The notes under the pieces: generated by a model | Databases searched by the model: none | What the model saw: the letters and a program-made list of their open reading frames with translations, nothing else | Told to the model about the DNA's origin: nothing | Shown: positions 6,421 to 53,882 of the stretch, in pieces | Numbering within the stretch: position 1 is the stretch's first letter | Layout of the letters: every line of letters starts with the position of its first letter | Origin: Candidatus Eisenbergiella stercoravium | GTDB taxonomy: Bacteria > Bacillota > Clostridia > Lachnospirales > Lachnospiraceae | Assembly: GCA_019113175.1 (NCBI GenBank) | Contig: DXHY01000027.1 | Span: 1 to 64,000 of the forward strand | Length of the DNA: 64,000 nucleotides | Reading direction: 5' to 3' | Translations under genes and position numbers: made by a program

Positions 6421-6605
6421 CATCGTCTTTCCCTCCATACCGAAACACATTGTGTTTATAGCAATCGGATAGAGGAAGTGCCTTCCCCTCTCCGATTACG
6501 CGATGCGCCGGAATCTTTTCTGATTATCTCTTTTTTCCGGAATAAATGCAAGCTTCTTTTCCGCAAAAACAAAATTCAGGATTTGATCATTCTGACCGCT
6601 TTTTA

Positions 6606-31519: not shown

Positions 31520-31548
31520 TTGAAACTGCAGGCTCCCTGTGCTATAAT
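31520..31548 (+). promoter_or_regulatory. sigma70-type promoter for pyrBI
   Basis: TTGAAA-17 nt-TATAAT. Confidence 0.75.
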
Positions 31549-31594
31549 GTCACGAAACCAAATGGGAAACGGGAAAACACGCCGGGAGGATAAA

Positions 31595-31639
31595 ATGAGG
31601 ACAAGCGCAGGCTGTTGCAACTGCAGAAATTTAAGCTGA
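31595..31639 (+). CDS. candidate leader peptide MRTSAGCCNCRNLS
   Basis: SD GGGAGG 6 nt upstream of ATG; ends at a terminator-like hairpin (31639-31669). Confidence 0.5.
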   Translation: MRTSAGCCNCRNLS

Positions 31640-31674
31640 AATCGAAGGGATTTTCTTTCTCTTCGATTTTATTT
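31639..31674 (+). terminator. terminator/attenuator-like hairpin in pyrBI leader
   Basis: AAATCGAAG-N13-CTTCGATTT followed by TATTTT. Confidence 0.5.
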
Positions 31675-31680
31675 TGCGCG

Positions 31681-31776
31681 ATAAGCCCGGCAGGCGGCCG
31701 TCATGCCTGCATGATCGGCCATTTGCCGGGCAAGTACAGCGAGCGGCATTTATGCCGTGAGATGAACGCATCCCCT
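31681..31776 (+). ncRNA. conserved structured leader element, copy A
   Basis: 83/93 identical to 45367-45459 (minus) plus one 3-nt indel; stems 31685-31691/31725-31731 and 31696-31705/31710-31720; trailing hairpin CGGCATTTATGCCG. Confidence 0.65.
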
Positions 31777-31821
31777 CCGCCGCGGTTTTCCTTCAGTCCA
31801 GGGAAGGAGACATAAATAAAT

Positions 31822-32745
31822 ATGAGACATCTGATGAACCCTCTTGATTTTTCCGTAGAGGAGCTGGACAGGCTGTTCGAGCTTGCCGCTGATATTGAGG
31901 CAAATCCCGCGGCCTATGCCCACGCCTGCGCCGGTAAAAAGCTCGCCACCTGCTTCTATGAGCCCAGCACCAGAACCCGGCTGAGCTTTGAAGCCGCCAT
32001 GCTGAATCTGGGCGGAAACGTGCTCGGCTTCTCTGACGCGGCATCCTCCTCTGCCTCCAAAGGGGAAAGCGTTGCCGATACCATCCGCATTATCTCCTGC
32101 TATGCCGATATCTGCGCCATGCGCCATCCCAAGGAAGGCGCTCCCATGGTCGCGGCATCCTTTTCCGGCATTCCCGTCATCAACGCGGGTGACGGCGGCC
32201 ACCAGCATCCCACCCAGACGCTGACGGACCTGATGACCATCCGCAGCCTGAAGGGAAGGCTGAACCACCTGACCGTCGGCCTGTGCGGAGACCTGAAATT
32301 CGGCCGCACCGTTCATTCCCTCATCAACGCGCTATCCAGATACGACGACATCCGGTTCATTTTCATCTCTCCGGAGGAGCTGCGGGTTCCGGACTATGTC
32401 ATCGAGATGCTGAAAGAGAAAAATATCCCCTATGAGGAGGTCATCCGCCTGGAGGACAGCCTGCAGCAGCTGGATCTTCTGTACATGACCCGGGTGCAGC
32501 GGGAACGCTTCTTCAACGAAGAGGACTATGTCCGCCTGAAGGATTTCTACATCCTTGACAAGGCAAAGCTGAGCCTTGCTCCCGCGGATATGCTGGTCCT
32601 GCATCCCCTTCCCAGGGTGAATGAAATTTCCGTGGATGTGGATGACGATCCCCGCGCCGTCTATTTCAAGCAGGCTCAATACGGCGTATATGTCCGCATG
32701 GCCCTGATCCTCACCCTGCTCGGCCTGACGGAAAAGAAGGCATAA
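31822..32745 (+). CDS. pyrB: aspartate carbamoyltransferase catalytic subunit
   Basis: [26 protein letters not shown]...[12 protein letters not shown]. Confidence 0.97.
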
Positions 32746-44509: not shown

Positions 44510-45301
44510 TCAGATACACGGTACCGGCCTGTGGTACAGATCATGCTTATCTCTGTAATCTCCCATCAGGCGCAGCGCATATTCCATCACATGGGTACCC
44601 ATGTCGGCCCAGTCGATCAGCGTACCTCTCAGATCCTTTCTGAGCCTGCGGATTTCCAGCTGAAACTGCCCCACAATTGCCTCATCCATGGAATCCACCA
44701 CTGTGCTGACATGATGCATTTCACTGCTGAGGTTTTCATACCCCGCATCCAGTCTGGCAACGTGCTTCTTCAGATCAGAGATATCTCCCTTCATGTCGGA
44801 GATATCCTCCTGCATCACGGTCATCTTCTCCTGCATTTCCGACATATTCTGTTTCAGGCCGGCCACATCTGTCTGCACGGCTTCCATGTTCTGCTTCAGG
44901 TCTACGATTTCCCCCTGCATGACATCCATGTTTTCCTGCATTACCGACATGTCAGCCTTCAGACCTGCAACGTCTGTCTGCAGAACCGCCACATCCTCCT
45001 TCAGGCCCGCGACATCCGATTTCAGGACGGTTACGTCCTCCTTCAGCCCGGCTACATCTGTTTTCAGGACTGCCACATCTGTCTTCAGTTCTGCAACATC
45101 TGTTTTCAATTCTGCAACATCCATCTTCAGCACGGCGACATCCGTCTTCAGTTCCGCCACATCTGTCTTCAGGCCGGCAACGTCCATTTTCAGTCCGGCA
45201 ACATCTGATTTCAGCCCGGATACATCCACCCGGATTTCCTTCACCTCGGCGCTGACGCCGTTAATCGCTTCGAGTATTCTTCTTTCTGCATCTTCGCTCA
45301 T
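44510..45301 (-). CDS. heptad-repeat coiled-coil protein
   Basis: Repeated [GEV]LK[TSME]DVA heptads, then EIRRLRKDLRGTLIDWADMGTHVMEY. Confidence 0.8.
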   Translation of the reverse strand: MSEDAERRILEAINGVSAEVKEIRVDVSGLKSDVAGLKMDVAGLKTDVAELKTDVAVLKMDVAELKTDVAELKTDVAVLKTDVAGLKEDVTVLKSDVAGLKEDVAVLQTDVAGLKADMSVMQENMDVMQGEIVDLKQNMEAVQTDVAGLKQNMSEMQEKMTVMQEDISDMKGDISDLKKHVARLDAGYENLSSEMHHVSTVVDSMDEAIVGQFQLEIRRLRKDLRGTLIDWADMGTHVMEYALRLMGDYRDKHDLYHRPVPCI

Positions 45302-45366
45302 TCCATTCCTCCTCGTATTATAAATCTTCCGCACTCCCCCGTTCGTGCAGCTGCCTGTATCTGATC

Positions 45367-45459
45367 AGGCGATGCGCACAGCTCACGGCATAAATACCGC
45401 TCGCTGTACTCGCCCGGCCAAAGGCCCATGCAGGCATGACAGCCGCCTGCCGGACTTAT
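45367..45459 (-). ncRNA. conserved structured leader element, copy B
   Basis: 83/93 identical to 31681-31776; promoter TTGAAA-17-TATTGT (45527-45555) just upstream. Confidence 0.65.
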
Positions 45460-45526
45460 CTTGCGGTATTGTTCCGGCATGAACACAGCTGTGCCCCTCC
45501 ATTTTTCAGATCGATCCGTTGCAGAT

Positions 45527-53481: not shown

Positions 53482-53882
53482 GAAAATGAGCAGGACTGTA
53501 AGCCGGGTTATGTCGTGAATAATCATCTATCCAGGACTGCCGTTGCCGGCAGCCTCAAGCGACCTACCTGAAAGCAGGCCGGGCAAGCCTGTCGCTTTCT
53601 GTCTGGTCTTGCTTCGGATGGGGTTTACATGTGCCCCGCCTGTTGCCAGACGGGCGGTAGTCTCTTACTCTGCCTTTCCACCCTTACCAGGCCCGAAGGC
53701 CCTTTCCGGAAATGCTCCGTTTTCGAAGCATTCCGGGGCGGTTTATTTCTGTTGCACTGGCCTTGGAGTCGCCTCCACCGGACGTTATCCGGCATCCTGC
53801 CCTGTGAAGCCCGGACTTTCCTCACCTGCCGCCCTTCCAAAAGAAGGACGGACAGCCGCGATTATTCATCCTACTCATTTTC
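53482..53882 (-). ncRNA. rnpB: RNase P RNA, bacterial class A
   Basis: GAGGAAAGTCCGGGCTTCACAGGGCAGG, ACAGAAATAAACCGCC, GGTAAGGGTGGAAAGG, CTACCGCCCG..., ACATAACCCGGCTTACAG; P1 GAAAATGAGTAGGA/TCCTGCTCATTTTC. Confidence 0.95.

Follow-up and report, generated by a model that had tools for sequence, protein, structure and literature searches.

Structured, probably mobile repeats behind intrinsic terminators in Lachnospiraceae, with a decaying copy in the pyrB leader of a Candidatus Eisenbergiella

Bacterial chromosomes carry several kinds of short interspersed repeats, among them the structured BOX, RUP and SPRITE repeats of pneumococci (PMC3049150) and the MITEs (PMC10969869). Group IIC introns are known for their choice of target, as they insert at intrinsic terminators (PMC4424553), and the Clostridiales-1 RNA (RF01699), listed among the orphans (PMC2864571), has been given no cis-regulatory role. 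Here we describe a family of structured repeats of Lachnospiraceae, starting from a 64,000-nt stretch of Candidatus Eisenbergiella stercoravium DNA (contig DXHY01000027.1, positions 1–64,000; hereafter the window, to which positions without a contig or locus prefix refer). An earlier note on this DNA had singled out 96 nt in the pyrBI leader (31681–31776) as a candidate structured RNA repeated in a second leader. We find that both segments belong to a dispersed family that fits the class of small interspersed structured repeats, being shorter than 200 bp, multi-copy, extragenic, foldable and present or absent between relatives. No published description of this family was found in the open-licence literature.

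The pyrB leader of the window (31520–31675) comprises a promoter, a short ORF and the hairpin ATCGAAGGGATTTTCTTTCTCTTCGAT with its T-run, an attenuator-like arrangement that is conserved in the genus. Read from the sequence, the promoter is of the sigma-70 type (TTGAAA-17-TATAAT; 31520–31548, + strand), and its TATAAT box is kept in the pyrB leaders of congeners. A possible leader ORF of 14 codons (31595–31639, + strand) would stop just 5′ of the attenuator hairpin; several congeners have a similar ATG at this position, and the content of the ORF is poorly conserved. The attenuator-like intrinsic terminator itself (ATCGAAG...CTTCGAT and T-run; 31641–31675, + strand) is recognizable, as TCGAAGG...CTTCGA followed by a T-run, in all 12 pyrB leaders found in the genus, with or without the element. 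This leader has no match in Rfam and possibly acts by pyrimidine-sensing attenuation. Downstream lies pyrB (31822–32745, + strand), the ORF for aspartate carbamoyltransferase, whose orthologues in the genus are 89–97% identical. Both the gene and the terminator are outside the element, the terminator being its insertion target.

Copy A of the element extends over 31672–31784 (+ strand; 91.4 bits and E = 6e-19 with the covariance model R1, 86 bits with the element model R2) and is 5′-complete, 3′-truncated and decaying. It retains the T-run, the 5′ strand of the stem P0 (CGCGATA; 31677–31683, + strand, model positions 6–12), hairpin H1 and the upper part of hairpin H2, whereas H3 is lost and the 3′ P0 strand and the lower H2 stem are mutated. 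H1 (31685–31731, + strand), the main hairpin of the earlier note, is long and imperfect, and the fold that had been drawn by eye was recovered here: an outer stem (31685–31691/31725–31731), an AGGC/ATTT internal loop, an inner stem capped by CCTG and then a second hairpin. The latter is H2 (31734–31767, + strand), which has a tandem GA/GA internal loop and whose lower stem has decayed in this copy. The 96-nt segment is a real part of the element, but the full unit, which begins with the T-run at 31672, normally includes H3 as well.

Copy B (45371–45460, − strand; R1, 70.2 bits) is partial, with a decayed 5′ end and H3 and with no terminator T-run directly upstream; R2 widens it to 45359–45468 at 63.4 bits. 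It aligns with copy A as the note had claimed, with a 3-nt indel (BLAST E = 3.8e-26, 87% identity), and precedes a 274-aa ORF (44510–45334, − strand) with many tandem heptad-like repeats (DVAELKTDVAVLK...). A third copy survives as a 3′ remnant, GGCGCATCGCGTAATCGG...CCGATT, which comprises the 3′ P0 strand and H3 (6464–6515, − strand; BLAST, 93% to the 3′ part of the element, G000:C43:6463–6508; R1, 34.8 bits). The only gathering-level Rfam match of the window is a bacterial RNase P RNA of class A (RF00010, 297.5 bits; 53483–53877, − strand).

The family reaches well past these copies. In the 4.1-Mb host genome, BLAST with the 96 nt of copy A gave 28 matches (E ≤ 1); copies A and B thus belong to a dispersed repeat and do not form the pair of leaders that had been proposed. 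With a 140-nt query the family was detected in 8 of the 13 genomes of the genus, seven of which have 13–40 matches each. Model R1, built from eight closely related copies, reaches very different sequences sharing the same fold; searched against 150 Lachnospiraceae genomes from 149 genera, it matched 25, the richest of them carrying 19, 15, 9 and 7 copies. Under strict filters, with which weak matches are lost, a covariance model of the element had no match in about 376 genomes of Clostridia other than Lachnospiraceae, and the phages, plasmids and viral contigs searched held no match. A pattern scan of named genomes matched two Candidatus Eisenbergiella species, one uncultured Lachnospiraceae and an uncultured Merdimonas. 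Many copies are truncated and decaying, as are both copies in the window.

The complete unit is about 139 nt long (for example G000:C86:7930–8068, locus L002), within a family range of roughly 125–160 nt, and the 139-nt unit has a predicted folding energy of −92 kcal/mol. From its 5′ end it consists of the T-run TTTTG, the stem P0 (GYGCGATA/TATCGCRY), which closes a three-way junction of H1 and H2, and, beyond the 3′ P0 strand, the separate hairpin H3 (ATCGGATAGGGGAAG...CTTCCCCTATCCGAT). The P0 strands are inverted repeats, but not terminal ones, because H3 lies past the 3′ strand. The tandem GA/GA internal loop of H2 sits between GTACAGC/GCTGTGC and GCGGCAT/ATGCCGT. Most Eisenbergiella copies start with G[TC]GCG or a similar sequence and end with AT; in a longer subfamily H1 is enlarged, and some copies stand in tandem. 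H3 is also seen on its own, in this form or as close variants, as a solitary terminator-like hairpin (L197, 4260–4349; G000:C88:70661; G000:C30:49535), one example being the hairpin behind ribDEAH.

The fold is preserved by compensating changes across genera, in line with the structured RNA that the earlier note had proposed. An alignment of 22 sequences has two-sided changes at 46 of the 52 pairs, with 93% of cells paired as against 30–41% when partners are slid; for 65 copies the figures are 49 of 52 pairs and 91% as against 30–42%. By helix, the changes cover 7 of 7 pairs in P0, 13 of 17 in H1 and 12 of 13 in H2. As both alignments had been fitted to the model, we also folded a sequence-only alignment, which recovers H1, upper H2 and H3, but not P0, and in which 28 of 35 pairs covary. 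Paired columns hold 145 G.U cells against 72 A.C cells, an excess that suggests that one particular strand is the folding one, with the qualification that a model-fitted alignment leans toward G.U and that the count cannot tell RNA from single-stranded DNA. Rfam contains no family that matches the element, at gathering or at relaxed thresholds, and only RF01699 comes near; Cupriavidus-1 scored 30.6 bits, under its cut-off of 45.5.

Most copies of the element stand directly behind intrinsic terminators. Of the 85 distinct copies analysed, TTTT stands at the 5′ boundary in 71 (5.7% at random positions of the same loci), a hairpin of −8 kcal/mol or lower lies upstream in 82 (random, 46%) and both features occur in 69 (random, 2%). 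The combined figure is the informative one, as the hairpin criterion by itself is lenient. The model contains the T-run, which biases matches toward copies that have it, whereas the upstream hairpin is outside the model. The upstream sequences are ordinary intrinsic terminators that differ from copy to copy; in a minority of cases, copy B among them, the T-run in front of the element is gone.

Orthologous empty sites were found at five loci, namely pyrB, the trpE T-box leader (L002), L037, L034 and L053; at the trpE leader, five congeners are without the element. Comparison of filled and empty sites places the junctions (marked here by slashes) at T-run / GYGCGATA ... CCGAT / flank, in a single orientation. 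No target duplication is visible in these comparisons, in which boundaries are uncertain by 1–3 nt, so that a very short duplication or deletion is possible. Even without the element, the trp leader site contains a Clostridiales-1 RNA; the newly arrived copy lies between that RNA and the terminator. Two near-identical copies behind different terminators of one genome (G101, L111/L134) point to recent movement. Judged from these sites, the target terminators predate the insertions, the element being the newcomer. We infer that the element is mobile from a comparison of species, not strains, in which most genomes are drafts or metagenome-assembled.

Could the element nevertheless serve the genes beside which it stands? 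The earlier note had left the choice between a leader RNA motif and a mobile RNA-like repeat, and it is the mobile repeat that covariation, multi-copy insertion and the lack of an Rfam match favour. The position of copy A between attenuator and pyrB is what a pyrBI leader regulator (a riboswitch or part of an attenuator) would have, and yet the element is missing from 10 of the 12 pyrB leaders of the genus, and so is no conserved pyrBI leader RNA; apart from the host genome it is present there only in G008, where the same position holds another variant of it, and copies are found at many unrelated genes. Such a regulator is highly improbable, and what stands behind the conserved pyrB attenuator is a passenger copy in the course of decay, not a regulator. 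A coding explanation, by which ISPAGGRHACM... would be a small protein or a peptide tail, can practically be set aside. Several Eisenbergiella copies keep the frame open, but a gapless alignment of eight copies has 18, 12 and 11 variable columns at codon positions 1, 2 and 3, with no enrichment at the third, stops interrupt the frame in 61 of 86 copies, and indels disrupt it between subfamilies. By these measures the element is non-coding, which bears out the note, in which the shared ORF was judged a poorer explanation of the conservation than RNA structure. A host function could also lie behind the close conservation of the structure, the repeat being an RNA or DNA element behind terminators (a fail-safe terminator, a protector of mRNA 3′ ends or a binding site for proteins or gyrase, like some REPs) that is occasionally copied and is kept by selection. 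We consider this unlikely: the structure is strongly kept across genera and H3 resembles a terminator stem, standing alone at an operon end in L197 near 4.3 kb, but presence within one genus is patchy (8 of 13), orthologous sites are empty with their terminators intact, and many copies, both of those in the window included, are truncated and decaying.

The remaining alternatives concern the enzyme. Neither a mobiliser gene nor an autonomous copy was found in our searches, and where clustered copies surround thrS (G011:C73, G009:C1) and ribDEAH (G137:C28) and might have been an autonomous element or transposon ends, the enclosed genes are ordinary host genes. Mobilization by a single-strand HUH transposase (IS200/IS605 TnpA or RAYT) would make the element a relative of REPs and PATEs. 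The mechanism of these enzymes goes with a missing target duplication, a fixed orientation, a T-rich target and hairpins near the ends, all of which the element shows. However, Y1_Tnp was not found in the host genome (G000) or in the element-rich congeners G001, G005, G008 and G009, and across the 150 genomes the Y1 transposase is not associated with the element (17 of 25 element-positive against 68 of 125 negative genomes, p = 0.15), which leaves this reading less likely again than a host function. Lower still we place a retroelement moved in trans by a reverse transcriptase (RT), which could come from a group IIC intron or be the retron Ec107-like enzyme of Eisenbergiella. In its favour are the terminator target of group IIC introns (PMC4424553), the shared start and end of most Eisenbergiella copies and a stand-alone retron RT (RT_Ec107-like, E = 4e-129) in six element-rich Eisenbergiella genomes and in G102. 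Against it, the element has no intron domain V (RF00029 has no match at element copies and, in the host genome, matches only contigs C75 and C50), the retron RT's own upstream RNA looks unlike the element, and R2 finds no element copy upstream of the RT genes and one about 0.6 kb downstream, in L248. Across genera the retron RT shows no association either (3 of 25 element-positive against 8 of 125 negative genomes, p = 0.27), and G137 and G023 have no RVT_1 match at E ≤ 1e-10 despite their 15 and 9 copies (drafts, 95% and 86% complete). The retron RT loci are L267 (G000:C88:53146–54156), L248, L250, L252 and L251, the last four with a structured-looking upstream region. The two RF00029 loci (L085, G000:C75; L086, G000:C50) are group II intron 3′ ends slightly below the cut-off of that family, with an RT frame upstream in C75.

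The family, its fold, its position at terminators and its lineage-specific presence are firm. Beyond these points, we think it probable that copies A and B represent a family of structured Lachnospiraceae repeats that are mobile but non-autonomous and that target terminators, the copy at pyrB being a passenger in decay. Such repeats would be moved by a trans-acting enzyme that recognises one folded strand of the element, as RNA or as single-stranded DNA, and joins it at a terminator, directly 3′ of the T-run. The terminator would offer a safe harbour, as it would still work after insertion and the cost to the host would be low. The trp T-box leader shows that a copy can also insert where a related RNA stands. 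More tentatively, and with some doubt, the family may represent a new and minimal kind of mobile element, in which about 139 nt of folded RNA or single-stranded DNA, akin to Clostridiales-1, are spread by an undescribed enzyme that recognises the three-way junction and joins them to the end of the T-run without target duplication. Which enzyme moves the element is the question that the family poses. These apparently undescribed repeats, structured and probably mobile, extend across a dominant family of the gut, and they carry a warning: passenger structures in the leaders and attenuators of these genomes (pyrB, the trpE T-box, thrS) can mimic regulatory RNAs.

Among described RNAs, Clostridiales-1 resembles the element in the order of its parts: P0, H1 with a GCUUGC-type loop, H2 with a GA internal loop and then a third hairpin. 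The H2 motif ACAUGAGCA/UGCGAAUGU is common to RF01699 and to divergent element copies such as L109, and the RF01699 copies that R2 matches are in register with it and lie on the same strand (E of 7e-8 to 4e-4, with a short-calibrated model and a differing H3 topology). The two differ in that H3 lies outside P0 in the element and inside it in RF01699; no scanned element copy reaches the RF01699 gathering score of 48 bits, and the L002 element is unmatched even at E ≤ 10. RF01699 RNAs stand directly behind the trpE T-box terminator in several congeners (L166–L169 and the L002 trpE leader), whereas the copies in L117 and L186 are not behind terminators. Common descent of the two, at some distance and as judged from these comparisons, is probable but unproven, and the element offers a lead on an orphan Rfam family.

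Insertion at terminators (69 of 85 copies against 2% of random positions, and the empty sites) is common to the element and the group IIC introns, from which the rule of standing directly behind intrinsic terminators in one orientation is otherwise mainly known. Here the rule is followed without an intron core: the element has about 139 nt, no domain V and no ORF, and it is present in genomes in which no reverse transcriptase was detected. Like REP/BIME repeats with their RAYT and the PATEs derived from IS200/IS605, it is palindromic, extragenic, multi-copy and strand-specific in its folding; unlike them, it is not tracked by a Y1 transposase. The retron msDNA-like repeats of Nannocystis exedens offer a parallel in the idea of structured, RNA-derived repeats in a bacterial chromosome; the element differs in showing no association with retron RTs across genera. 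With the BOX, RUP and SPRITE repeats and with MITEs it shares being short, structured, mostly non-coding and clustered, with copies inserting near or into one another. Descriptions of MITEs, however, give them a high AT content, terminal inverted repeats and target duplications, whereas the element is GC-rich, folds into a three-way junction and a hairpin, shows no visible duplication and has a strict terminator target. In life style, BOX, RUP and SPRITE are its nearest counterparts.
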